Assembly (NCBI GenBank): GCA_913057775.1
Contig: CAJXOG010000003.1
Coordinates: forward strand, 248,001-312,000
Direction of reading: 5' to 3'
Length of the DNA: 64,000 bases
Origin: an uncultured Fodinibius sp.
GTDB lineage: Bacteria > Bacteroidota > Rhodothermia > Balneolales > Balneolaceae
Below, piece by piece: positions 22,939 to 43,048 of the stretch. The position numbers were made by a program, and so were the translations under genes. Each line of letters opens with the position of its first letter. The stretch's first letter is position 1. The notes below the pieces were generated by a model, which was not told the origin of the DNA, did no database searches, and was given only the letters and a program-made list of their open reading frames with translations.

Positions 22939-25671
22939 ATGAATATCACAGAAACCGGCAACAATTTTCGTGCACTTTTTTCACTTGATCCCGAGGTAAA
23001 AACTCGGGCATTGTTGATGTTTGTGTACAACTTTGTGTTGCTCAATACGCTTTACTTGTTAAAACCGGTGCGTGACAGCTTATTCCTCGAGCAGGTCGGG
23101 GCCTATAATTTACCATTCGTCTTTATTTTAACGGCCATTGCTGTTATTCCGATTTCGATTGGTTATTCACGGCTTTCTAAGCGGCACTCTGTTGGATGGA
23201 TTGTCTCAGCCATAACACTCTTTCTGGCAGCCAATTTATTTGTCATCTGGTTTTTTATAGAGATGAATAATGTCTGGTTGTACTATGGATTTTATGTCTG
23301 GGTCAGTATTTACAGCGTATTAATAACCTCTCAGTTTTGGCTGTTTGCCAATACCATTTTTAATTCAGTGCAGTCGAAAAAGATTTTTGGCTTCTTAAGT
23401 CTTGGCGCTATAGCAGGCGGCGTTTCAGGGGGAGAACTTACAGCTATACTTGTCAACAGGCTGTCGCTGCAACCAGAATCGTTGCTCTTGATATCAGCGA
23501 TCATAATAGTAGGGACTACTCCACTGGTGTGGTTGATTCTCAAAAAGAATGACAGTTCCGGGTTATCAAAAACTGATAAAAATGAGTTTGCAAAAGCTGA
23601 TAAGTCAATTCCGGGCAATCCCTTACAAGAGATTTTATCTCACAACCATCTGCTGCTTATTGTAGCTCTTATTGCAGTGACCGTAATGGTGACAACACTT
23701 ATCGATTATCAGTTTAAGACGGTGGCTGAGGCAGCTTACACAACTGAAGCAGCGCTGACCAGTTTTATGGGAAAATTTTATGGTCGAGTTAGCTTAATAG
23801 CACTACTTATACAGCTTTTTATAGGTACCATTTTCACCAAAAAGTATGGCGTGTCCGGTTCTCTTCTGTTGTTGCCCCTTGCGTTGCTAATCAGCGCGGG
23901 CGGGATGTTGCTCATACCCGGATTAGTAGCGGGTACCATCAGTCGGGGCGTCGATCAAACGCTAAAGCATTCTATTGACCGTACCGGTCGCGAGCTGCTA
24001 TTTGTACCTCTCCCCAAAGAGCTAAAGAATCGGGTAAAGGTTTTTATTGATCTGTTTGTTGATCACGGTGCCCAGGGTCTTACGGGATTGTTACTTTTAG
24101 GGCTAACATTCGGGTTGGATCTCAATGTGCAAGAGATATCAGTAGTGGTAGTTACATTGCTTGTTGCGTGGGTAGTGATTGCAAAGATGGCCGGCAACTC
24201 GTACGTGGATGTATTCCGCAATAGGTTGAAGCAGAAAGTTAAGGGCGGCTGGAGTAAAAGCCGTAAAAAGAGAAGTCGTTTTGAAGAGGCTAATAAAGAA
24301 AGTATCCAAAAGCTATTAAAGAGCGACGAGGAAACAGATGTGCTTTGGGCCTTGGATGTGATGCGCAAACAGGAGCTAGAAGTAGATCAGGATTTACTTA
24401 TCAGAAATCTAAAACACTCCAGTTGTAAGGTACGCATCAACGCTGTGCAATTGTTGCGTGAGCGGGAGCTTGGTGAATGGGTGGATGAGGTGATGGATTT
24501 AGCCTATGACAAGGATGCCGATGTACGCATGGAAGCAATCCGATATGTATACCAATTTTATGAAGGAGATCGCCTGGAAAAACTAACTGTTGGATTACAT
24601 CACGATGATGCCCGAGTACAGGCGGTTGCCATGGCTCTTATTGCCGAAGAGGGTGATGAAGATGAGAAGAAACTTATTACCGATGAGTTATTATATGAGG
24701 CGGTACATTTTGAGGGTGAAAATGGTCATGAGCTCCGTAAGCAATCTGCTAAACTATTGGGCGAAATATATGATCGTGATCATGCTTATTTGCTAAAAGA
24801 ACTGCTTAATGATGAAAACCCATCCGTAGTAAAACAAGCCATTGAAAGCACAGGTAAAACGCAGGATCGACGTTTTGTTCATGACTTGCTACTGTTGATG
24901 GGTAACGGAATTTATCGGAAAGCAGTAGAACAAGCGCTCAGAGAGTACGGCAGCCGGATATACGGAACCATGTACGATCACATGATAGATTCACATTTGC
25001 CGGTGTCAACACGGCGATACATTCCATGGCTATTTTCTCAAACAGTGAGCGAGGATTCATGGGATATTCTTAAGATGAGTCTAAAATTCTGTTCCATTCC
25101 CATCCGACATGGTGTTGTTAAGGCATTGCTTCGGATACGCAAACATCGTCCGGAGTTTCGGGTATCGGATGAGATTATTGCCCAGAATATAGAGCGAGAG
25201 ATAGAACGATATTCAAAGATTAAGAAAGCCCTTTCTTTCTACCAAAGCGGAAAGGTTACGCTATCTGAGGAGGCAGATAAAATACTGGAATATGAGATTG
25301 AACAGACGTTCGAAAATGTTTTCAGGTTACTGAGTTTGAATAATGAAATCGAGGATATTGATAATGCATACAAAGCAATTGTGGGTGACAATCTGGGACT
25401 GAGGTCTGATGCAATCGAATTTATTGAGAACCTCACAATGTGGGATGTGCGCAAGTTGGTGATCCCTATTTTGGAAAACTATCATGCTGATAGCTGGCCG
25501 AAAAATAGTTTTAGCAAGGCACTTACCGATACCGAAGATGTACTCATTTTCCTAAAAGAAATCTGTCACGCAGAACTCGAGGAAAAGCTAACCCCCAACC
25601 TTGAGGATAAGAAAGCGTCAGACCAAAAGTCCAAGGTAGTAAAGAAATCAAATATTGAGGTCGAGGAATAG
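22939..25671 (+). CDS. Npt-type nucleotide translocase with C-terminal HEAT repeats (copy A)
   Basis: A 910-residue inner-membrane protein. Residues about 15-425 form around twelve membrane segments and match the ATP/ADP (NTP/NDP) translocase family of organelles and intracellular bacteria (LYLLKPVRDSLFLEQVGAYNLPFVFILTA, later RTGRELLFVPLPKELKNRVKVFIDLFVDHGAQG). Residues about 455-760 are helical HEAT-like repeats with pattern VRxxAxxxL (for instance SSCKVRINAVQLLRERELGE). The tail is charged. Family members exchange nucleotides across the inner membrane; direction and substrate here are unknown. It heads an operon with an outer-membrane barrel, a kinase-like lipoprotein and a phosphoesterase, so export of nucleotide to the periplasm is an attractive inference. 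Confidence 0.88.
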   Translation: MNITETGNNFRALFSLDPEVKTRALLMFVYNFVLLNTLYLLKPVRDSLFLEQVGAYNLPFVFILTAIAVIPISIGYSRLSKRHSVGWIVSAITLFLAANLFVIWFFIEMNNVWLYYGFYVWVSIYSVLITSQFWLFANTIFNSVQSKKIFGFLSLGAIAGGVSGGELTAILVNRLSLQPESLLLISAIIIVGTTPLVWLILKKNDSSGLSKTDKNEFAKADKSIPGNPLQEILSHNHLLLIVALIAVTVMVTTLIDYQFKTVAEAAYTTEAALTSFMGKFYGRVSLIALLIQLFIGTIFTKKYGVSGSLLLLPLALLISAGGMLLIPGLVAGTISRGVDQTLKHSIDRTGRELLFVPLPKELKNRVKVFIDLFVDHGAQGLTGLLLLGLTFGLDLNVQEISVVVVTLLVAWVVIAKMAGNSYVDVFRNRLKQKVKGGWSKSRKKRSRFEEANKESIQKLLKSDEETDVLWALDVMRKQELEVDQDLLIRNLKHSSCKVRINAVQLLRERELGEWVDEVMDLAYDKDADVRMEAIRYVYQFYEGDRLEKLTVGLHHDDARVQAVAMALIAEEGDEDEKKLITDELLYEAVHFEGENGHELRKQSAKLLGEIYDRDHAYLLKELLNDENPSVVKQAIESTGKTQDRRFVHDLLLLMGNGIYRKAVEQALREYGSRIYGTMYDHMIDSHLPVSTRRYIPWLFSQTVSEDSWDILKMSLKFCSIPIRHGVVKALLRIRKHRPEFRVSDEIIAQNIEREIERYSKIKKALSFYQSGKVTLSEEADKILEYEIEQTFENVFRLLSLNNEIEDIDNAYKAIVGDNLGLRSDAIEFIENLTMWDVRKLVIPILENYHADSWPKNSFSKALTDTEDVLIFLKEICHAELEEKLTPNLEDKKASDQKSKVVKKSNIEVEE

Positions 25672-25672
25672 C

Positions 25673-26950
25673 ATGCGACTACAGAATAGAATAATTAGCT
25701 TAGTGGCCATCAAGGCATGGGTTTTATCACTAATGCTTGTCATCGGGATGATGTATCCCGGTACTGTATTTGCGCAATCCGGCGATTCCTTGAAAGCTGA
25801 TAGTGAAGATCCCAATATGGTGCCTTATAAAACAGAGCGTAGCGTAGGCCACCATATTTTAGCGGCTCCATCGTATCTGCTGCACTGGGTTAGTCGGCCG
25901 TTAGGCTACGGGGTAAAATATGCCGAAGAGAATTTTCCTCATTGGTTTCAAGGAGAACGAGGTCCCTACGGATTTTTGCCGCTGGTAGAGATCGGGGGCG
26001 AAGAAGGGTTTGCTGCCGGCGCGCTTCTGTATCATGATCATCTATTTTTTAAAGATCACAGAGCGAGGGCAGAAATTTTATTTGGTTCACAAGTATATAA
26101 CGAGTTTGAAATACAATACCAGGTACCTATTAAAGGCATTGAAAATAGCAGCCTGACTTTTGAGGGAGAGTATGAAAATGCTCCCGAGCGTTCATATTAT
26201 GCAGATAACCGCAATGAAGATTTAAGTTATGCCAGTGAATTCGGAAGCATAGAATTGACCTATAAACAGCAGGTAAATAGCTGGTTACAAACCCAAATTA
26301 AGGCGGGTTATCGGGATCGGACTATCAAAACGAGCAGGTATGAAGATGATCTTGATGAGCGGATTCCCTTGTCGCTGCTTGGAAATAGCAAGCTGTTTTC
26401 TGTGGGCAACCGCTGGATATTCAACTATAAAAATGGACGCAAGCGAACGTTGAATGGAACACAGTATGTTGTGGGCGGTAATTGGACGCAATCTGCGGAA
26501 ACGCACTCCCTCAGCTTTATCGAATATTACGGAGAGATCCACCACTTTGTACCTGTATCTATCTTGCCAGAGACACGGCGGCTGGGATTAAAAATGCAGC
26601 TGCACAAGCAAGAGAATTTGGCTTCTCGCAGAATACCGTTCTACGAGCTTAATTCATTGGGGGGTACCCACAATTTACGGGGCTTTCCAAGCAATCGGTT
26701 TCGGGCGCAGGGTAAGCTTCAGCTAACGGCCGAATACCGCTACCCGATCTGGGATTTTCTGGATATGGTGATTTTTGTGGATGAAGGTCAGCCGTTTAAT
26801 AAATACAGTGATCTTTCGTTCGGAGATTTTAGATCCTCTTATGGCTTTGGGTTTCATTTGCTTTCGGATAACGGTCTTGCTTTTCGATCAGAATTTGCTT
26901 TCAGCAATGAAGGCGGACGATTCATCATCAGTATAACGCCTAATTTCTAA
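25673..26950 (+). CDS. Omp85-type outer-membrane barrel without POTRA (copy A)
   Basis: A signal peptide (hydrophobic run ending near VFAQ) leads to a barrel of about 425 residues. The Omp85 barrel signature is present: LGGTHNLRGFPSNRFRAQG holds the RGF motif, then EYRYPIWDF, VIFVDEGQPF and a final phenylalanine in IISITPNF. No POTRA domain is present, so it is a compact BamA/TamA-like barrel. I chose ATG 25673, two bases after the preceding stop and with GAGGA upstream, over an ATG at 25655 that overlaps the translocase gene. A homologue lies at 34625. Confidence 0.85.
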   Translation: MRLQNRIISLVAIKAWVLSLMLVIGMMYPGTVFAQSGDSLKADSEDPNMVPYKTERSVGHHILAAPSYLLHWVSRPLGYGVKYAEENFPHWFQGERGPYGFLPLVEIGGEEGFAAGALLYHDHLFFKDHRARAEILFGSQVYNEFEIQYQVPIKGIENSSLTFEGEYENAPERSYYADNRNEDLSYASEFGSIELTYKQQVNSWLQTQIKAGYRDRTIKTSRYEDDLDERIPLSLLGNSKLFSVGNRWIFNYKNGRKRTLNGTQYVVGGNWTQSAETHSLSFIEYYGEIHHFVPVSILPETRRLGLKMQLHKQENLASRRIPFYELNSLGGTHNLRGFPSNRFRAQGKLQLTAEYRYPIWDFLDMVIFVDEGQPFNKYSDLSFGDFRSSYGFGFHLLSDNGLAFRSEFAFSNEGGRFIISITPNF

Positions 26951-28656
26951 TGATTTCTTTTTTGAATATTTATCGATCTCATATTGTAATTATAATCACG
27001 CTGTTAGCTATGAGTATTCTCCAGGGATGTTCATCCACGAAGCCATATGCCGAAGATGCTATAAAAACATTTGATCCTGACACCACACGAATTGATCGTC
27101 CCGAAGAGCAGCCACAATACCAATACTGGGATCGTATTGATAACACTATTTTCCATCAGCTCGAAAAGCCGTTGGATTTGAATCGTACGGTACGATTTGT
27201 TGGACGTAAGCTGGGCGTTAGTGATAAACGTCAGGCCGATAATGTGAATAAGCTGGATGAAGTTCCTGAATCGAGCTGGTACACCCGGCGTCACTATTTT
27301 AATGAAATGAGTCCCAAAGAATTGGCTTCCGGACCCAATACCGTTGCGCCTGATACGGCGGGGTCATGGACGATATTCAAAGCCAAGTTAGAGGGCGCTA
27401 ACTCAGGATTTTTTATTGAGGACGAAAACGAAAATCGCTACCTCATAAAATTTGACGGCTACGACTATCCAGAATTAACGACCGCTGCAGAAGTGATTGG
27501 AACCAAGGTTTTCTACGCAGCAGGCTATACTGTTCCAGAATCGGTAATCACCTATTTTGATCCCAATAAAGTAAGTATCAAGGAAGGTGTTACTGTTGAG
27601 GAAGACGGAGAAAAACGACCCATGACAATGGAGGATTATCGCGCCATTGTTGCAAAACGTCCCGTTAATGAGGAGGGCAAAATTCGGGCGTTAGCCAGCA
27701 AATTTGTAGCCGGAATTCCGGTGGGGCCATGGAATTTTGAGGGCACGGTAAAAGGCGATCCCAACGACCGGGTGGCGCATGAGCACCGGCGGGAGCTGCG
27801 CGGCATGCGGGTAATCAGTTCGTGGCTTAATGATACCGATCGGCGCGATGCCAATACCATGGCGGTATACAACGATAGCGGCTATATTGATCATTACGTG
27901 CAGGATTTTGGCAATACGCTTGGTGCTAACGGCACATCTATTCATCAACCCATACAGGGACAGGCCTATTTGATTGATCCCCGGTATATGATGGTTTCAG
28001 CCTTTTCTTTGGGAGGATATATCACTCCCTGGGAAACGATTGAAGTCGATGTTCCATATCCGGCGGCGGGTTATTTCAGAGCTGATGTTTTTAAGCCCGG
28101 TCGCTGGGTGCCGACGCATCCGCTGCCACCGTTTGAGAATATGACGTTGCGCGATTCTTTCTGGGGGACTAAGCACGTGATGAGTTTCTCCAATGAAGAT
28201 ATCCGAGCCATTGTAGCAACAGGAAAATATTCTAATCCCAAAGCCGAAGAATATATTGCGGAAACACTGATTGCCCGCCGCGATAAAATCGGGCACTACT
28301 GGTTTGCAAAGATTAATCCGCTGGATCGGTTTGAGGCAGAAATAGTGATTAATACTCTCAGACTTTCTTTTGATGACTTGGCCGTGAGTGGCAATTTAGT
28401 AGATGCTTCTGGTCATCAGTATCAGGGGCAGATTAAGGTGGGGCAAAAAATATTGGTTGATAAACTGAAGGCGAATAAGCCGGAGTTTACGATAGAATTG
28501 AATGAAGCTATCCCAAACAGAGATCAAAAAATGGTACTCAACTTTGTTATTCAAGCAAAGGGAGAATTCCTTGCCGGAAATGGTAAAACAGTGACAGTGT
28601 ATATTGAGATCCAAAATGATGAAAGCAGGGTAGTGGGCATTCAGCGTGAAGAGTAA
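26950..28656 (+). CDS. Predicted outer-membrane lipoprotein with kinase-like motifs (copy A)
   Basis: A 568-residue protein with a lipoprotein signal (SILQGC, lipid Cys27), overlapping the barrel stop by one base. It has no family I can name, but motifs follow a protein-kinase/HipA-like order: Lys167 in NRYLIKFDGYDYP, Glu181 in LTTAAEVIGTKVF, a hinge-like RALASKFVAGIPVGP, Asp297 and Asn302 in WLNDTDRRDANTMAV (D-x4-N, as in catalytic loops), and Asp319 in VQDFGNTLG. The spacing from N to DFG (17) is near that of HipA and lipid kinases. A homologue at 35938 keeps all of these. I infer an extracytoplasmic kinase-fold protein; activity and substrate are unknown, and the C-terminal 100 residues look like a beta-rich tail. 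Confidence 0.75.
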   Translation: MISFLNIYRSHIVIIITLLAMSILQGCSSTKPYAEDAIKTFDPDTTRIDRPEEQPQYQYWDRIDNTIFHQLEKPLDLNRTVRFVGRKLGVSDKRQADNVNKLDEVPESSWYTRRHYFNEMSPKELASGPNTVAPDTAGSWTIFKAKLEGANSGFFIEDENENRYLIKFDGYDYPELTTAAEVIGTKVFYAAGYTVPESVITYFDPNKVSIKEGVTVEEDGEKRPMTMEDYRAIVAKRPVNEEGKIRALASKFVAGIPVGPWNFEGTVKGDPNDRVAHEHRRELRGMRVISSWLNDTDRRDANTMAVYNDSGYIDHYVQDFGNTLGANGTSIHQPIQGQAYLIDPRYMMVSAFSLGGYITPWETIEVDVPYPAAGYFRADVFKPGRWVPTHPLPPFENMTLRDSFWGTKHVMSFSNEDIRAIVATGKYSNPKAEEYIAETLIARRDKIGHYWFAKINPLDRFEAEIVINTLRLSFDDLAVSGNLVDASGHQYQGQIKVGQKILVDKLKANKPEFTIELNEAIPNRDQKMVLNFVIQAKGEFLAGNGKTVTVYIEIQNDESRVVGIQREE

Positions 28657-28677: not shown

Positions 28678-29829
28678 ATGAAGAAGTATATCATAATTTT
28701 AGTGGTTTTAACTATTGTTGCAGGATGTGTGTCTACTAAACCACCTTCTGCCGATAGTGTTCCGGTTGTGGAAAATAGTGCGCAGCCCGATGAGAGTGAT
28801 CGATTGTATTCGGTGTTTTTGGTTGGTGATGCGGGTGATGCTTCACTGAATCCGCTGGAGCCGAGCTTGTCGGTATTGCGTGAGAAATTGCAACAGACAG
28901 GAGAAAATAGTGCGGTCGTTTTTTTAGGAGATAATGTATATCCGCATGGGCTGCCTCGAGAAGATCACCGCAAGCGACAGCGAGCAGAAAAACGCTTGCA
29001 GGCACAATTTAAATCAGTAGAAAATTATGAGGGCGAAGTCATATTTTTGTCGGGTAATCACGATTGGAATTCCAGCCGTAAAAAAGGATTACAAGCGGTG
29101 AATCGACAAGAACGTTTTGTAGAGGAATCGCTAAATCGTGGTAATGTTTTTCTGCCGGATGGAGGGTTGCCCGGACCGTCCGTGTTAGAAGCGGGAAATG
29201 ATGAATTTAAGCTGTCGATTATTGCATTGAACACACAGTGGTGGTTGTATCCCCATAAAAAGCCGGGGGCTGAAACGGAAGCCGAATATGAATCAACGAA
29301 AGAGCAGGTGATCCGGGATCTAAAGAAAGCTGTTGCTGATACTACGGTTGATCAAGTGTTGGTGGTGGGGCACCATCCAATGTATTCGAATGGAACAAAC
29401 GGGGGTAAATTTCCCTTGAAAACACACTTGTTGCCACCGGTTGGAGGATCGCTATATGTGTTGTATCGTAATATTTTTGGTACGGCACAGGATATTTCCT
29501 CACGAAAGTACGGTAAATTTAAGGAGCAGTTGACGACTGTTTTTGCCGAGCGTAATCCATTGATTTACGCTTCGGGCCACGATCACAGCCTGCAGTACAT
29601 CACTTTTGATGATGAGCGACGCAACCAACATTATATCATCAGCGGATCAGGGACGGTTACGAGTTATGTCAAAAATCCCGAGTTACCCAACTTTGGTATC
29701 CAGCAGAAAGGATTTTCAGCACTGCATTATTATAAGAAGGGCATTTGGATTGAATTTTGGAATGAGCAAGGCAAAAGACTTTTTGAACAAGAAATTACCT
29801 CGATTCATAAAAAAGAATGGGCAAAATAA
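28678..29829 (+). CDS. Metallophosphoesterase lipoprotein (copy A)
   Basis: A 383-residue calcineurin-like phosphoesterase with a lipoprotein signal (TIVAGC, Cys17). The two-metal motifs are all present in order: GDAGD, VFLGDNVYP, LSGNHDWNSS, VVGHHPMYSN and SGHDHSLQY. It hydrolyses phosphate esters outside the cytoplasm; the substrate is unknown. Its relatives in Bacteroidota are often found with, or fused to, Omp85-like barrels, and here a barrel gene lies two genes upstream. It starts 21 bases after the kinase-like lipoprotein and may oppose it. Confidence 0.9.
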   Translation: MKKYIIILVVLTIVAGCVSTKPPSADSVPVVENSAQPDESDRLYSVFLVGDAGDASLNPLEPSLSVLREKLQQTGENSAVVFLGDNVYPHGLPREDHRKRQRAEKRLQAQFKSVENYEGEVIFLSGNHDWNSSRKKGLQAVNRQERFVEESLNRGNVFLPDGGLPGPSVLEAGNDEFKLSIIALNTQWWLYPHKKPGAETEAEYESTKEQVIRDLKKAVADTTVDQVLVVGHHPMYSNGTNGGKFPLKTHLLPPVGGSLYVLYRNIFGTAQDISSRKYGKFKEQLTTVFAERNPLIYASGHDHSLQYITFDDERRNQHYIISGSGTVTSYVKNPELPNFGIQQKGFSALHYYKKGIWIEFWNEQGKRLFEQEITSIHKKEWAK

Positions 29830-29844: not shown

Positions 29845-30336
29845 ATGGAAGCTACAGATGAAAAGGTCTATGAGAAAAAGAAGGCTTTTGTAGAAGAAGT
29901 GAGCCTCATTTTTGAGCAGCAGGGTCATTCTCGAATCAGTGGGCAAATTTTGGGCTGGCTGCATGTTTGCAAGCCACCGGAGCAGTCGTTTAGTGACTTA
30001 GTTGAGCATTTGAATGTGAGCAAAGCCTCAATCAGCAATATGACCCGATTGCTTATGCAGGCGGGATTTATTGAAAAAGTGCGTATGCCCGGTGAACGCC
30101 AAACCTATTTTAAACTTGTTGACCATGCCTGGTGCAAGGTGATGGAAAGGCATCTCGAGAACATGAAGAAGCTGCGCGATATCTCGGCAAAATACCTTGC
30201 CGAATTGAATGCCGAAAGAGAGACAGAAATCGATCGGCTGAATGAAATGCATGATTTCTACGATTTTGTTACTGAGAATTTTCCGGAATCAATTGAAGCA
30301 TATAAAAAGAGCTGTCGGAGCAACGGGCAGCAGTGA
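29845..30336 (+). CDS. GbsR/MarR family regulator (copy A)
   Basis: A 163-residue winged-helix protein of the GbsR type. The DNA-binding part is GRISGQILGWLHVCKPPEQSF-like followed by LNVSKASISNMTRLLMQAGFIEKVRMPGERQTYF; the second half is a helical dimerisation region. It is the last gene of the translocase operon, 15 bases after the phosphoesterase, and closely resembles the protein at 33624. Its likely target is the palindrome before the operon (22864-22901), giving autoregulation. The effector is unknown. Confidence 0.9.
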   Translation: MEATDEKVYEKKKAFVEEVSLIFEQQGHSRISGQILGWLHVCKPPEQSFSDLVEHLNVSKASISNMTRLLMQAGFIEKVRMPGERQTYFKLVDHAWCKVMERHLENMKKLRDISAKYLAELNAERETEIDRLNEMHDFYDFVTENFPESIEAYKKSCRSNGQQ

Positions 30337-33623: not shown

Positions 33624-34103
33624 ATGTCTGCAGACGATACGTATAAACAGAAAAAGCAATTTGTTGAGGAAGTAAGCTTGCTTATTGAGGAAAGCGGGAA
33701 ACCTCGGATATCAGGTCAAATAATGGGGTGGCTTATGGTATGTGACCCACCTGAGCAATCATTTTCTGATTTAGTAGAGCACCTCGAAGTCAGCAAGGGA
33801 TCCGTCAGCAATATGACTCGTATGCTAGTACAATCGGGACTCATTGAAAAAGTGCGGCTACCAGGCGAACGACAAATACACTTCAGGATCAAAGAAGGTG
33901 CATGGGTAGATGTGCTGGAAAAGGAACTTGAGTCTATCAATTCCTTGAAAAACATTTCGGACAAGGGGCTAAAGATTTTGAAAAAGGAGCCAGGTACTGA
34001 TAAATCTCGTCTTAAGGAGATGAATAAGTTTTACAAATTTGCAGAAAAAAATCTGCCACGCCTCATCGAAGAATATAAAGAAGAACATTTTGATCAGGTT
34101 TGA
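33624..34103 (+). CDS. GbsR/MarR family regulator (copy B)
   Basis: A 159-residue paralogue of the regulator at 29845. Shared stretches include RISGQI(L/M)GWL, PPEQSFSDLVEHL, VSK(A/G) and GLIEKVRLPGERQ, so the DNA-contacting helix is nearly the same (SKGSVSNMTRMLVQSG here). It precedes the second barrel/kinase-like/transporter set and probably controls it. The similar recognition helices suggest that both regulators could read the same palindromes. Confidence 0.9.
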   Translation: MSADDTYKQKKQFVEEVSLLIEESGKPRISGQIMGWLMVCDPPEQSFSDLVEHLEVSKGSVSNMTRMLVQSGLIEKVRLPGERQIHFRIKEGAWVDVLEKELESINSLKNISDKGLKILKKEPGTDKSRLKEMNKFYKFAEKNLPRLIEEYKEEHFDQV

Positions 34104-34624: not shown

Positions 34625-35914
34625 TTGTCTGTACCTTCAACCTGTAGCTCGATTCTTGTCATTTGCCTCGGAATGTGGCTATTCTTTCCTCCTGATGTAA
34701 ATGGCACTACAGTAAAGGAACAGAAAAATCCAGCCGTTGCAGATACTACGACCTCAGATAAGAATAATCCCAACAGCATTCCTTATGCTTCGAGCCGTAC
34801 GTTTGGTGAACATCTATTGGCACTGCCTTCGTACCTGCTACACTGGACTACCAGGCCCATAGGATATGGCGTCAAATTCCTGGAGCGAGAATTCCCAGAA
34901 CTCTTTGAACTGAAAGTGCCTAATTCCGGCATTGCACCCTATTTTGAAACCGGAAGTAAAAATGCGAAAATAGCATACGGTATAATTGCTTATCATAAAA
35001 ACTTTTTAAGCCCGGGTAATGAACTGCGATTTCATGGTCTCTTTGGATCTGAGAGCTATAATTCGTTTGAGCTGGACTATGCAATATCAACGTTTTTGGC
35101 TGGAGAGTTAGAAATCGATGCTTCCTACGCCAATAATCCGGAACAATCGCTGTACGGCGGCAACAATTCAACTCTGGAAGAGAAGCAATTATTTTCAGCT
35201 GAAGAGCTTGAGGGATCGCTGGCCTACAAGCAGCAGGTCAGCCCTATCCTGGGGCTACGCCTTAACAGCTCGTTCAAGAAGCTTACTATCGGCCAGGGAG
35301 ATGTTGACGACAGTCCCGGCGGGCCTATTGCAGACCGCATGCTGGGTACCACTTCTTTGGTTACCATTGGCGGTTCTGCCAGCTATGACTTTACAAAGGG
35401 GAAACCCCGTACCTATTTGGGACCTCGCATAGCTGCGGGCCTCGACTGGAGCCAGTCAATTAATAGTACAGACTTCCGTTTTTTGACTTATACAATTGAA
35501 TGGGATCACTTTTTGCCCGTTTTTTTCCTGCCCAAAACACGGCGACTTGCTTTTAAAAGCCGATTGCAAAAAGTAGAACCATTGAAAAATAGTGGAGTTC
35601 CATTTTTTGAATATCCAACTCTGGGAAGCAATCAGGATCTGCGCGGGTTTACGGGCAATCGATTTCGGGATGACGGTTCGCTTCTGCTAACGCTCGAATA
35701 CCGGTATCCCATCTGGGATTTTGCAGACCTCGTTTTATTTGTTGATGAAGGACAAGTATTCGACTCCTATTCTGATATTCATATTAGCGATTTCCACACC
35801 GATTACGGCTTTGGGTTCCATATTATTTCCGGGGGTGGATTTTCCTTCAGAACCGAGTTTGCCTTCAGTAATGAAACCTCGCGTTTTATTTTATCGGTAA
35901 CTCCAAATATTTAG
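34625..35914 (+). CDS. Omp85-type outer-membrane barrel without POTRA (copy B)
   Basis: A 429-residue paralogue of the barrel at 25673: LPSYLLHWTTRPIGYGVK, then LGSNQDLRGFTGNRFRDDG, EYRYPIWDFADLVLFVDEGQ and the C-terminal FILSVTPNI. The barrel carries the RGF motif and no POTRA domain. The start is uncertain: the frame opens after a stop at 34616, and the only early start is TTG 34625, which gives a short signal sequence (SSILVICLGMWLFF); the next ATG is at residue 17. The gene therefore begins almost against the operator. It is followed 23 bases later by the kinase-like lipoprotein gene. Confidence 0.82.
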   Translation: MSVPSTCSSILVICLGMWLFFPPDVNGTTVKEQKNPAVADTTTSDKNNPNSIPYASSRTFGEHLLALPSYLLHWTTRPIGYGVKFLEREFPELFELKVPNSGIAPYFETGSKNAKIAYGIIAYHKNFLSPGNELRFHGLFGSESYNSFELDYAISTFLAGELEIDASYANNPEQSLYGGNNSTLEEKQLFSAEELEGSLAYKQQVSPILGLRLNSSFKKLTIGQGDVDDSPGGPIADRMLGTTSLVTIGGSASYDFTKGKPRTYLGPRIAAGLDWSQSINSTDFRFLTYTIEWDHFLPVFFLPKTRRLAFKSRLQKVEPLKNSGVPFFEYPTLGSNQDLRGFTGNRFRDDGSLLLTLEYRYPIWDFADLVLFVDEGQVFDSYSDIHISDFHTDYGFGFHIISGGGFSFRTEFAFSNETSRFILSVTPNI

Positions 35915-35937: not shown

Positions 35938-37635
35938 ATGCATCACACTAACAAACTATTACAAACAATCGGTATCGGCGCGGTCGTGCTTTTATTATTG
36001 GGATGCGCAGGCAGCCGCCCCTATACATTAGGACCGGTCAAGACCTTTGATCCCGATACCTCCGCCATACCCGAACCCGATGAAAAAGAGCAGTACCAGT
36101 ACTGGGACCGCATTGACAATACTACCTTCCATCAGCTTGAAAAACCCCTAGACCTTAATCGAACATTCCGATTTGCCGGTCGCATGTTGGGAGTCGCAGG
36201 TGACCGCCAGGCCGACAACGTGAATCACCTGGATCAAGTGCCGGAATCCAGCTGGTACAGCTACCGGCATTATCATAATCCCATGACGCCGAAAGAGCTG
36301 GCAAGGGGGCCAAACACCGTGCAACCGGATACGGCAAGGGAGTGGACCATTTTTCGGGGAAAGCTGGAGGGAGCAAACTCAGGCTTTTTTATTGAAGACG
36401 CCAACGGCAACCGCTTTCTGATAAAATTTGATGGTTATAAGTACCCGGAACTGACTACGGCTGCGGAAGTTATCAGCACAAAAATATTTTATGGAGCAGG
36501 CTACTACGTCCCGGAGTCCACGATAACTTATTTTGATCCCGAAAATGTAAGGATTGGAGAGGGCGTTAAAGTCAGTGTTGATGGAGAAACGCGGCCGATG
36601 ACCCGGCAGGATTATTTAGACATTATAAAAAAGCGGCCTCGTAACAAGGATGGTAAAATCCGGGCCCTTGCAAGCAAATTCGTGGACGGGCGTCCGGTAG
36701 GGCCCTGGGGCTTCGAGGGAACACGGAATGACGACCCCAATGATCGGGTACTGCATGAGCACCGGCGGGAACTGAGAGGCATGCGTGTTATCAGTTCCTG
36801 GTTAAATGATACCGACCGCAGAGATGCCAACACGATGTCGGTTTATACCTCGGAGAGCTATATCAAACACCTCGTTCAGGATTTTGGCAACACGCTGGGT
36901 GCCAACGGCACAAGTATCCACACCCCTATTTATGGCCAGGCATATCTTATTGATCCTCGATACATGGCCCTTTCGGCGGTGGCTTTGGGCGGTTACGTGC
37001 GCCCCTGGGAGCAAGTTGAGCCGGAGGTTCGCTATCCGGCCGTGGGCTATTTTAAAGCTGAACCGTTCCAGCCAGGCCACTGGGTGCCTGTCCATCCGCT
37101 GCCGGCATTCGAAAATATGACGCTGCGCGATGCATTCTGGGGAGCAAAAATTGTAATGAGTTTCAGTAACGAGGATATCCGGGCTATGGTGGAAACCGGA
37201 CAAATATCTAATCCGGAAGCGGAAGAATATTTAGTGCAAACCCTGATAGACAGACGTGATAAAATTGGTCGCTATTGGTTTCGACGCATAAATCCTGTTG
37301 CCAAATTCCATGCACGTATTGACAACCAAAAACTGGTTCTCCAATTTGATGATTTGGGAGTTACGGGCAACGTTTTTTCATCGTCGAGCTCCCATTATAG
37401 GTATAACGTATTACATGCAGACAAGGTATTACAAAAGGGGGAGAGGGTAAACGATTCGGCAATCGAAATTCCGCTACAGATGGGTCCTGAAAAGAATAGG
37501 AAAGCTCCGTTGGTTGTACAGATTCAGATTACAACGCACAGGCCGGGATCGGATATCATCGCCAAAGAAACGCGTGTATTTGTTGCGCTTGAAGACGAAG
37601 GACCGCGAATCGTAGGTGTTGAAAGAGAAGAATAA
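35938..37635 (+). CDS. Predicted outer-membrane lipoprotein with kinase-like motifs (copy B)
   Basis: A 565-residue close paralogue of the protein at 26950, with lipoprotein signal LLLLGC (Cys23). All kinase-like positions are kept: Lys163 in NRFLIKFDGYKYP, Glu177 in LTTAAEVISTKIF, Asp293 and Asn298 in WLNDTDRRDANTM, Asp315 in VQDFGNTLG, and the hinge-like RALASKFVDGRPVGP. Divergence is concentrated in the C-terminal 100 residues. Conservation of exactly these positions between paralogues supports a functional nucleotide-binding site. The gene lies between a barrel gene and a nucleotide transporter gene, as in copy A. Confidence 0.75.
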   Translation: MHHTNKLLQTIGIGAVVLLLLGCAGSRPYTLGPVKTFDPDTSAIPEPDEKEQYQYWDRIDNTTFHQLEKPLDLNRTFRFAGRMLGVAGDRQADNVNHLDQVPESSWYSYRHYHNPMTPKELARGPNTVQPDTAREWTIFRGKLEGANSGFFIEDANGNRFLIKFDGYKYPELTTAAEVISTKIFYGAGYYVPESTITYFDPENVRIGEGVKVSVDGETRPMTRQDYLDIIKKRPRNKDGKIRALASKFVDGRPVGPWGFEGTRNDDPNDRVLHEHRRELRGMRVISSWLNDTDRRDANTMSVYTSESYIKHLVQDFGNTLGANGTSIHTPIYGQAYLIDPRYMALSAVALGGYVRPWEQVEPEVRYPAVGYFKAEPFQPGHWVPVHPLPAFENMTLRDAFWGAKIVMSFSNEDIRAMVETGQISNPEAEEYLVQTLIDRRDKIGRYWFRRINPVAKFHARIDNQKLVLQFDDLGVTGNVFSSSSSHYRYNVLHADKVLQKGERVNDSAIEIPLQMGPEKNRKAPLVVQIQITTHRPGSDIIAKETRVFVALEDEGPRIVGVEREE

Positions 37636-37652
37636 TTCATAATCTATTCCCG

Positions 37653-39153
37653 ATGCAAACTCCTGGCTTTTTACGGCGGCTACAACAGCAGTTTTTCGAT
37701 ATCCGAAAGAACGAATGGCCGCGGGCCCTGGCCCTATCCCTTTTCTTCTTTTTGGTTATTGCGATATTCTGGGTGCTCAAGCCCATCAAGAAGGGAGCGC
37801 TGATAGGTTATTATAAGCAGGACGCCCTGCAGCTGCTGGGGCTTAGTTTTGGAGGGGCCGAGGTGGAGCAGCTGGCCAAGGTGGTAAACATGATTGTGGT
37901 TTTTGGGGTCGTAGTGCTTTTTACGCTCCTCATACGTCGTTTTAAACGTCAGCAGGTGGTATACATATTTTGTGGGCTGATAAGCGTTGGACTTATCTAC
38001 TTTGGCTTTGCACTCACGAGTCCGGAGGCCATCGATGCGTGGACGTTCTACGTATTCGGCGATATTTTTAACTCAGTTATGGTCGCCACCTTTTGGGCTT
38101 TTGCCAACGATGTGAACAATCCGCAGGAATCGAAGCGGTTATATGGAATCATTGGCTTGGGCGGTGTTGTGGGGGGGCTTTTTTGGATCTACCTTTGTCA
38201 GCGCCCTGGTGGATGTAGACGGCGCCCGGACGCTTCTTTCCCGTTCATTTGGCAGCCTCAACATCGCTGAAAAGCTACAGCGCGGTTTTATGGAAGTGGT
38301 CTTTCCCATTTACGAATACGTTATCCAATTTAGCAGGTGGTTTAACAGGCAGTTAGGATATACCGGCTATGCCGATCAAATGCTGGGACGACAAAGCTTG
38401 CTGCTTGTTTGCATAATTGCGATGCTTATTATTGCACTGTTAACCTATTATGTAAATGCTCGATCTCCCGTAGTTGAGGAGGATAAAACTGACACAGAAG
38501 AGAAAAAGTCGGTGAATGCTGCCCTCGAAGGTGCAAAAATGGTGTTCAGTTCGCGTTATCTGTTGGCTATTCTAAGCATTATTGGGTTTTACGAGATTAT
38601 TTCCAATATAATTGAGTTCCAGCTCTCGGCGGCGGTAGAAATCTCAGCTATGCAGGGGACCGAAATTGATGCTTTTTTTGGCACCTATGGCCTGTTAATT
38701 GGCGTTGTGTCCATATCCGTACAGCTTTTTGCCACTCCCTATGTGATGAATAAAAAGAGCATAGCTATGGCTTTAATGGTGTTGCCGGTTGTTGATTTCG
38801 TCCTTTCCATCGGATTTCTGGCCGTGCCGGTGTTATGGGTTGCGGCAGCACTATCCATAAGTGATAATTCGCTGTACTATTCTATTACGCAATCAGCCAA
38901 AGAGTCGCTCTATACCCCTACCTCCCGCGATGTCAAATACAAGGCTAAGGCGTTTATCGATATGTTCGGGCAGCGTTCAGCCAAAGTTTTAGCAGTGGTG
39001 TTGAATCTTGTTGTAGCCGCATTTGTGGGCATCGAAAATGTACGCTGGCTATCGATTGTCACACTTCTTATTATTGCGGGATATTTTGTTGTGGTGCGTT
39101 ATGCCGGTGAAGAGTTCAAAAAACGTAGTACTGACACGAAAGATAGTTCTTGA
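37653..39153 (+). pseudogene. Npt-type nucleotide translocase without HEAT domain, frameshifted
   Basis: Two overlapping frames together make one translocase-like membrane protein of about 500 residues. The first (from ATG 37653) gives FWVLKPIKKGALIGYY and LYGIIGLGGVVGG, then derails at a run of seven G (38171-38177). The second frame continues with FFGSTFVSALVDVDGARTLL and later YTPTSRDVKYKAKAFIDMFG to the stop at 39151-39153. Removing one G restores the reading (GGVVGGFFGSTFVS). The run could be a slippage (phase-variable) site, a null mutation or a sequencing error. Unlike the copies at 22939 and 43249 it has no HEAT repeats. Confidence 0.8.
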
Positions 39154-41779: not shown

Positions 41780-43048
41780 TTACGGCTGGGAATATAATAT
41801 TTTGCGAAATACAACCTTTCCCTTCGGTCGATTATCGTCAGGTATCCAAAACGAGAGCACCGTCTTATGTTGCCAGATATCGATGCGGGCAAATCCCTTG
41901 TGCTGATAGGCAAAACCGGCCGACTTTGCCCGCCGTACGTAATCGTTGACTGTTCCGCTGCCACTTATTATATAGTGCTGGTCGTTTATATGATGATATT
42001 GCATACTGTGATCATGCCCGGAGGCGTAGGTCAGGTTGGGGGCTTGCTCAAATATACGAGTCAGTTGTTCCTGGAGCTGGCTGTATTGTTTGCCGGCTAT
42101 ATCCTGATGAAAGCCCACTGTTTTGCGGTACAATGGAAGTATAGAGCCAAATCCTGGCAGCGGCACATACAGTGCCGGGTGAATCTCTTGCAAGGGAAAC
42201 AGGTGTTTTTCCCATGAGAAATATCCGCCGTGATTTCCGTTGCTGTACATGGGATGGTGACCTGCCACAAATATTTGACGGTCTTTGTGTTGGGTGACCA
42301 ATGAGTCTACGGCCTGCACAACTGTTTCTTTGCTTCCGGGTTCACATTCTTGAAGACCCGGCTTTTGGTGCCCGTATAACCACCATTCCGTATCCAAAAT
42401 GAGCAATACGCTGGAGGAGCCGAGCTGTACTTCAACAGGCCCCGGGCACCCATTGTTGGGGAGAAAAAAGGCATTTCCTGTTGCCGCCGACTCAATATAA
42501 GCTTCCTGACGTTGTATAGCCTGCAGCCCGTTTTTGCGGCCGTTGTTCCAGTCGTGATTGCCCGGAATAAAAATAGCTTTGCCCTTGTAATTCTGGAAAA
42601 CTTGCAGCTGTGTGTTTATACGTCGCTCAGATTGGGCCCTTTTGGGATGCCCTTGGGGGCGCAAGCCGTTGTTATAAATATTATCTCCCAGAAAAATTAC
42701 GGCGGATTGCTCACCGGCTTTATTCAGTTGGTACTGTAAAATTTGAAGGGATGGCTCCAGCGGATCTGCCGAAGGATCTCCGGTATCCCCGATAAAAAAG
42801 AGAGTAAAGTGAGTACTATCCGTGCTGATCACATCTGAGTTGTTTTCGGGTCGATCCACCTCATTTTGGTAGTAAGGAGCGCTGGCCCCGCATCCCACGA
42901 AATAAACCGATACAATGACTAGGGAAAGCTTGGGCAGTAGTTGAAGGGCTAATTTCCGAAATTTGTCAACGCTACGTTCTGCTTTAAATAGATGCACGAT
43001 AATATTTTTTATAAAGCGTTTACCGATTAAAAGTAGCCTTTGTGTCAT
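41780..43048 (-). CDS. Metallophosphoesterase lipoprotein (copy C)
   Basis: A 422-residue paralogue of the phosphoesterase at 28678. Metal-binding motifs are intact: GDTGD, VIFLGDNIY, PGNHDWNNG, VAGHHPMYSN and SGHDHSMQY. The lipobox YFVGC puts the lipid cysteine at residue 53, which is late. The ATG at 43048 lies inside a dispersed repeat (GATGACACA), so it may be fortuitous; a GTG at codon 18 would leave a more ordinary 35-residue signal. The true start is therefore unresolved. Confidence 0.85.
   Translation of the reverse strand: MTQRLLLIGKRFIKNIIVHLFKAERSVDKFRKLALQLLPKLSLVIVSVYFVGCGASAPYYQNEVDRPENNSDVISTDSTHFTLFFIGDTGDPSADPLEPSLQILQYQLNKAGEQSAVIFLGDNIYNNGLRPQGHPKRAQSERRINTQLQVFQNYKGKAIFIPGNHDWNNGRKNGLQAIQRQEAYIESAATGNAFFLPNNGCPGPVEVQLGSSSVLLILDTEWWLYGHQKPGLQECEPGSKETVVQAVDSLVTQHKDRQIFVAGHHPMYSNGNHGGYFSWEKHLFPLQEIHPALYVPLPGFGSILPLYRKTVGFHQDIAGKQYSQLQEQLTRIFEQAPNLTYASGHDHSMQYHHINDQHYIISGSGTVNDYVRRAKSAGFAYQHKGFARIDIWQHKTVLSFWIPDDNRPKGKVVFRKILYSQP

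Follow-up and report, generated by a model that had tools for sequence, protein, structure and literature searches.

The 64,000-nucleotide stretch analysed here (the window) comes from an uncultured Fodinibius sp., a salt-loving bacterium (assembly GCA_913057775.1, contig CAJXOG010000003.1, positions 248,001-312,000 of the forward strand). It encodes two lipoproteins with a predicted kinase fold, kinase 1 and its paralogue kinase 2, and a search of the host genome found these two copies of the family in total. With moderate confidence, we propose that they belong to an envelope phosphorylation module, in which a lipid-anchored extracytoplasmic kinase of the HipA/FAM20/CotH/PI4KII clan is fuelled by a carrier of the NTT family. 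The fold, the catalytic register, the export signal, the pairing with an Omp85 barrel, and the co-occurrence with NTT and phosphoesterase genes are supported by computation. The genomic context (Omp85, NTT/TLC carrier and phosphoesterase lipoprotein), which goes beyond a preliminary description of kinase 1, is the most informative part.

Predicted kinase fold and catalytic residues

Kinase 1 begins with MISFLNIYRSHIVIIITLLAMSILQGC27-SSTKPY, a lipoprotein signal whose lipobox ends in LQGC27. Our conservation alignment comprises 58 non-redundant sequences, with relatives 28-84% identical to the kinase region of the window copy, and Cys27 is present in all except about 4 of the 58. The serine at position +2 after Cys27 presumably directs the protein to the outer membrane, as predicted under the Lol rule. 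An AlphaFold model of residues 36-462, built from a 58-row alignment, adopts a kinase fold (mean predicted local distance difference test score, pLDDT, 90.6; predicted template modelling score, pTM, 0.91). It supersedes a first model from 17 rows, which had a pLDDT of 60 and a poor C-lobe.

In the numbering of the model (protein numbering minus 35), Lys167 (132) lies at the end of strand 128-132, i.e., beta-3, and Glu181 (146) lies inside helix 141-155, i.e., helix C. The loop that connects helix 246-258 (helix E) to strand 268-272 contains Asp297 and Asn302 (262 and 267), and Asp319 (284) is just after strand 278-282, following the next hairpin. As modelled, the beta-3 Lys, helix-C Glu, Asp-x4-Asn and metal-binding Asp would occur in kinase order and on the right secondary structure elements.

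Structural alignment against solved structures (VIA) returned atypical kinases for all of the best 28 matches (Z 15.0 to 8.8). The best was CtkA (Z 15.0, root-mean-square deviation 4.2 over 235 residues), followed by FAM20C (5yh0; Z 12.9, 4.6 over 262 residues), PI4KII-alpha (Z 12.4), CotH (Z 12.1), actin-fragmin kinase (Z 11.0), HipT (Z 10.9), MavQ (Z 10.5) and HipA (Z 9.8); the bacterial kinase complex 7vkb is also among these 28. Foldseek ranked FAM20 first (4kqa, E 8e-5) and CtkA second (E 1e-4). That a kinase family is missing from the lists of fold matches was given no weight as evidence on the fold. Over the C-terminal ~100 residues, the matches are to Ig/FnIII-like sandwiches, a common fold.

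The preliminary description had read the gene as an extracytoplasmic kinase, based on kinase-like motifs after a clean lipobox, and had proposed structure prediction and a fold search as checks. Its reading frame is correct (568 amino acids), the lipobox stands, and Lys167, Glu181, Asp297-x4-Asn302 and the DFG at 319 were each found at the position claimed. Both checks were run: the structure prediction gave the high-confidence kinase fold with the residues on the expected elements, and the fold search gave matches from the HipA/FAM20/CotH/PI4KII clan. The predicted fold and the lipoprotein signal together support the idea of an extracytoplasmic kinase. The paralogue was also described accurately, as kinase 2 retains every named residue and its identity to kinase 1 drops from 74% in residues 36-462 to 30% in residues 463-568.

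Retention of the named catalytic residues exceeds chance. Lys167 is kept in 56 of the 58 sequences, Asp297 and Asn302 in 55 each, Asp319 in 57 and Glu181 in 43. Only 38 of 427 columns are at least 94% conserved and Lys167, Asp297, Asn302 and Asp319 are all among them (p ~6e-5 for the four falling there by chance). Two motifs were found to be looser than first described. Of the DFG motif, Asp319 alone is constant, and DMG, DFA and DFD also occur; Glu181, present in both window copies, gives way to Ala or Ser in 14 of the 58 sequences, which form a distant sub-clade.

In L036 and L039, and in L038 according to a separate alignment, Lys167, Asp297 and Asn302 are lost jointly, so that these members look like pseudokinases, judging from their residues. 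They come from one genus of the same class, and the Omp85 partner is still present. Separately, in genome G067 the kinase gene is frameshifted (L138:5097-6852, also L028 and L030), with Omp85, two NTT genes and phosphoesterases still there.

Relationship to known kinase families

Neither kinase 1 nor kinase 2 scores above cut-off with any Pfam or NCBIfam model, which bears out the earlier suggestion of a family other than FAM20 or CotH. Because no such model reaches its cut-off, the lipoprotein kinase should be treated as a new, undescribed family within the HipA/FAM20/CotH/PI4KII clan, beyond Pfam and NCBIfam coverage. Several relatives match HipA_2 or HipA_C below threshold, over the N-lobe in the cases inspected. 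The best such match among the 58 sequences reaches E 0.0026 and 17.5 bits, where the cut-off is 27, and the window copies have no match.

For comparison, 23 HipA_2 kinases were collected, aligned and compared profile to profile using hhalign. The match has a probability of 89% (E 2e-6, for a single comparison) over 201 columns, with Lys167, Glu181, Asp297..Asn302 and Asp319 in register. The segments paired (kinase family/HipA_2) are YLIKF/YVLKF, AAEVIG/IAELIG, WLNDTDRRDANT/TNxDRTxxNTN and VQDFGNTL/LIDHGASL. This register test stands independent of the structure model and points to a catalytic core homologous to that of HipA/HipA_2.

The nearest known systems are thus HipA/HipT and HipA_2 (PF07804, PF20613), by sequence profile (HipA_2), and CtkA of Helicobacter pylori, by fold. 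Unlike HipA/HipA_2, the new family scores below the Pfam cut-off. Unlike HipA, which is a cytoplasmic toxin with a HipB-type antitoxin, it has a lipoprotein signal, no HipB-like partner and an Omp85/NTT context, as well as an extra N-terminal segment and the C-terminal beta-sandwich. The FAM20A/B/C secretory-pathway kinases are alike in that the lipoprotein kinase, given its predicted fold and export, would also act outside the cytosol, and FAM20 supplies the second-best structural match. The proteins differ from FAM20 in sequence (9-11% identity, and no match to PF06702 in any of the 58 sequences), and they are lipid-anchored bacterial proteins that share an operon with an outer-membrane barrel.

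CotH kinases phosphorylate spore-coat proteins. They resemble FAM20C (PMC12189002), and like the lipoprotein kinase they are bacterial atypical kinases. The preliminary description had likened the protein to FAM20 and CotH in idea, and both are indeed among the fold matches. The CotH sequence profile is unrelated, however: the Pfam model PF08757 matches none of the 58 sequences, and membership was rejected by hhalign (probability 0.1%, in a test weakened by full-length alignments with extra domains). Many Balneolaceae without the lipoprotein-kinase family have 3-5 CotH kinases per genome, and CotH has no match in the genome of the window. Possibly, the two families are alternative envelope kinases.

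A sequence search of the PDB (phmmer and profile) gave just chance armadillo-repeat matches at 398-426. PADLOC found no defence-system match for the kinase, Omp85 or phosphoesterase, and its weak HEAT-repeat match to the carrier is not meaningful. A literature search, with preprints and most subscription journals outside it, found no account of the kinase family or of an NTT-kinase-Omp85 module.

Genomic context of the kinase

The steadiest partner of the kinase is the Omp85 barrel, whose stop codon touches the start codon of kinase 1. Of the 55 kinase genes whose flanks were long enough, 54 have a same-strand Omp85 gene directly upstream; the remaining one is frameshifted, and its Omp85 gene sits upstream of the break. 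No Pfam match to POTRA domains (BamA/TamA type) was obtained in the window barrels at 25655 and 34625. The arrangement is similar to the patatin-Omp85 protein PlpD in that an Omp85 barrel is linked with an extracytoplasmic enzyme, and the barrel's relatives include phosphoesterase-Omp85 and patatin-Omp85 fusions. Unlike in PlpD, the kinase is a separate lipoprotein and the barrel lacks a POTRA match. In a Calditrichota-group genome, a gene encoding a PlpD-like patatin-like phospholipase-Omp85 protein (L147:8812-10989) is found near a kinase-Omp85 pair.

The second partner is the NTT/TLC carrier (PF03219). All three carriers in the window exceed the curated cut-off of 21 bits, and PF03219 genes occur at most 6.5 kb from the kinase in 19 of 32 loci, often paired, with one short and one HEAT-fused. 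We identified kinase relatives in 14 of 92 Balneolaceae genomes, 16 of 82 KSB1 genomes, 7 of 40 Calditrichota genomes and one genus from another family of the same class; this is the mapped range, as the wider contig scan used narrow peptides. No relatives were found in a plasmid collection. Some surveyed metagenome-assembled genomes are incomplete, so that absences are soft.

Within these groups the kinase and PF03219 co-occur, by p-values that treat genomes as independent of phylogeny. Balneolaceae have 12 genomes with both, 2 with the kinase only, 1 with NTT only and 77 with neither (p 3e-12). The corresponding counts are 13, 3, 5 and 61 in KSB1 (p 9e-9) and 6, 1, 0 and 33 in Calditrichota (p 2e-6), where in the single exception, G473, an NTT gene recognized by a purpose-built profile adjoins the kinase. 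The check within genera is the exception to that treatment: in the genus of the window the kinase and NTT occur in the identical 7 of 12 genomes (p 0.001), and in genus g11 they coincide in 3/4 (p 0.005). PF03219 is absent from 14 of 14 control genomes. A wider sample of the phylum has 7 more genomes with PF03219 but no kinase, and the carrier therefore has other uses too.

Known NTTs are nucleotide carriers, many of them exchangers, and Major et al. 2017 (PMC5381601) did not settle what they do in free-living bacteria. The carriers reported here score above the PF03219 cut-off, and they share with those of that study the NTT-HEAT architecture and a cyclic-nucleotide-binding neighbour. Unlike here, a link of NTTs to an envelope kinase finds no mention in the available part of that paper (PMC5381601). 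In five modules, a small protein is encoded directly 3' of the NTT-HEAT carrier (L004:12838-13266, L015:12988-13416, L099:1747-2187, L107:12407-12844 and L138:15292-15720). That of L004, the only one of the five tested, is a cyclic-nucleotide-binding protein, like the NTT-HEAT neighbours of Major et al. 2017.

The third partner is a calcineurin-like phosphoesterase lipoprotein. Such lipoproteins adjoin the kinase or NTT in Balneolaceae, KSB1 and Calditrichota, with those beside the kinase in KSB1 and Calditrichota forming a second group. Elsewhere in the Balneolaceae, fusion proteins of ~1266 amino acids combine the phosphoesterase lipoprotein with an Omp85 barrel, next to NTT carriers (L135:12192-15989, L137:8690-12454 and L140:11404-15207). 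These fusions support the idea that such lipoprotein enzymes act on the barrels or in their immediate vicinity.

Proposed mechanism and alternative explanations

In the envelope phosphorylation module that we favour, the kinase would be held by its lipid anchor, probably at the outer membrane, where it would neighbour or bind the Omp85-type barrel whose gene lies directly upstream. ATP would be bound between the two lobes via Lys167, Glu181 and Asp319 plus metal, and the phosphate transferred with Asp297 as the catalytic base and Asn302 as the second metal ligand. The acceptor would lie in the envelope, where a Ser/Thr residue on a protein of the outer membrane or cell surface is the most likely candidate and a glycolipid a less likely one. 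Protein kinases make up most of the nearest relatives by profile and fold, hence our preference for this type over a lipid kinase. To our knowledge, the periplasm is held to be free of ATP, and kinases are not expected there. The NTT/TLC carriers may swap cytoplasmic ATP for periplasmic ADP, an exchange that would answer this absence. The calcineurin-like lipoprotein could remove the phosphate mark or clear nucleotide products. Catalysis, substrate, transport direction and the physical complex are what we infer. More tentatively, these parts may make up a full extracytoplasmic system: ATP exported by an inner-membrane exchanger would fuel the new-family kinase, paired with Omp85, which would phosphorylate molecules of the outer membrane or cell surface, and the phosphoesterase lipoprotein would undo the modification.

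Several observations weigh against the module as proposed. The Foldseek template modelling scores do not exceed 0.55, so that kinship to any single solved family is distant, and the helix-C Glu181 is lost in one sub-clade. No NTT gene is nearby in 13 of the 32 kinase loci. The kinase occurs without a PF03219 match in G034 and some KSB1 genomes, and NTT occurs without the kinase in 5 KSB1 genomes and several Bacteroidota. Outside the within-genus check, shared ancestry is not accounted for in the co-occurrence statistics. The NTT proteins of the module are divergent, so that the substrate and direction of transport proposed for them are tentative, and one known NTT transports NAD (PMC5381601).

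PI4KII-alpha (Z 12.4) and MavQ (Z 10.5) come close to the protein kinases in fold-search score, which speaks for an extracytoplasmic lipid or glycan kinase. Its acceptor would be a lipid, a lipid A sugar or a surface polysaccharide, with Omp85 or the phosphoesterase acting on the same molecule, and the patatin-like phospholipase-Omp85 gene that adjoins some members (L147) would fit. We consider this unlikely, if still worth keeping in view, as the protein kinases CtkA, FAM20 and HipT/HipA rank equal or higher, the sequence profile matches that of HipA_2 (HipA-like kinases, few of whose substrates are known), and no lipid-binding feature was found in the kinase.

It is improbable that the protein is a pseudokinase or ATP-sensing scaffold, which would bind a nucleotide or partner and regulate the Omp85 barrel without phosphotransfer. 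The constancy of Omp85 (54/55) compared with NTT (19/32) is consistent with such a role, as is the persistence, alongside Omp85, of sub-clades that lack Glu181 or that lack Lys, Asp and Asn together. However, the four catalytic residues are retained in 95-98% of the 58 divergent sequences, including both window copies. Furthermore, in a split of the loci made by hand, NTT is nearby for 18 of 26 full-motif kinases versus 1 of 6 degenerate ones (p 0.03). None of L036, L038 and L039 has an NTT gene beside it, and G217, the one sampled genome whose sole copy has lost Lys, Asp and Asn, has no PF03219 match.

We give little credence to nucleotide scavenging, in which NTT would import outside nucleotides, the lipoproteins and barrel would process extracellular ATP, and the kinase fold would serve as a nucleotide-binding receptor. 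Intracellular bacteria do use NTTs to import ATP (PMC5381601), and the phosphoesterase could process nucleotides. Mere binding, however, would not require the catalytic Asp-x4-Asn, the free-living hosts make their own ATP, and import by ATP/ADP exchange yields no net gain of nucleotide.

Kinase folds can also catalyse other ATP-dependent transfers, such as AMPylation by SelO and glutamylation by SidJ. An adenylyl or glutamyl transfer using periplasmic ATP is very improbable here, despite the cited case of a glutamylase on a kinase fold (PMC7948968), as the catalytic-loop Asp and metal Asp are in ordinary kinase/HipA register and there is no sign of a flipped nucleotide.

Features of the window

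The coordinates of both modules and of a third carrier are given in Table 1. The MarR-like gene after module 1 is possibly a regulator of the module. A MarR-like paralogue at 33624-34103 precedes module 2, and both genes look duplicated along with the modules. The short carrier after kinase 2 has a frame break at 38171-38184, around the run GGGGGGGCTTTTTT, and relatives such as L004:8696-10033 are unbroken. The break is an error of sequencing or assembly, or else a genuine frameshift.

Table 1. Kinase modules and neighbouring features in the window, with positions counted from its first nucleotide
Feature	Position	Strand	Evidence
NTT/TLC ATP/ADP-type carrier fused to HEAT repeats, 910 aa	22939..25671	+	PF03219 E 1e-14, 54.7 bits; HEAT_2 E 2e-18
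Omp85-family outer-membrane barrel	25655..26950	+	PF01103 E 8e-14, 52.3 bits vs cut-off 24
Lipoprotein kinase 1, 568 aa: predicted HipA/FAM20-clan kinase domain and C-terminal Ig/FnIII-like domain	26950..28656	+	Open reading frame, conservation, model, fold search, hhalign
Signal peptide and lipobox up to Cys27	26950..27030	+	Sequence; Cys kept among relatives
Kinase domain, residues 36-462	27055..28335	+	AlphaFold model, pLDDT 90.6
Lys167, beta-3 lysine	27448..27450	+	Alignment, model, hhalign, conservation count
Glu181, helix-C glutamate, absent from distant sub-clade	27490..27492	+	Alignment, model, hhalign, conservation count
Asp297-x4-Asn302, catalytic loop (Asp297-RRDA-Asn302)	27838..27855	+	Alignment, model, hhalign, conservation count
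Asp319-Phe-Gly, metal-binding Asp	27904..27912	+	Alignment, model, hhalign, conservation count
C-terminal Ig/FnIII-like beta-sandwich, residues 463-568, diverging fast	28336..28653	+	Model, fold match, identity comparison
Calcineurin-like metallophosphoesterase lipoprotein, shortly downstream of kinase 1	28678..29829	+	PF00149 E 2e-8; lipobox
MarR-like regulator after module 1	29845..30336	+	Pfam scan, locus comparison
Second Omp85 barrel, directly upstream of kinase 2	34625..35914	+	PF01103 E 7e-10, 39.4 bits vs cut-off 24
Paralogous lipoprotein kinase 2, 565 aa, catalytic residues all present	35938..37635	+	Open reading frame, paralogue alignment
Short NTT/TLC carrier, two frames (37653-38270, 38143-39153)	37653..39153	+	PF03219 42.9/56.1 bits
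Second calcineurin-like metallophosphoesterase lipoprotein, adjoining third carrier	41780..43048	-	Domain match, lipobox
Third NTT/TLC carrier with HEAT repeats, 894 aa	43249..45933	-	PF03219 64.3 bits

Implications

If the proposed module is real, bacteria would possess an equivalent of the Golgi FAM20 system, equipped with its own ATP transporter, and free-living species would have a reason to retain NTT carriers. With kinase and carrier joined in a conserved operon, one module allows direct tests of the kinase and of what NTTs do in free-living bacteria. Such a system would give the Gram-negative envelope an additional, energy-dependent layer of modification, of lipids or of proteins after translation.

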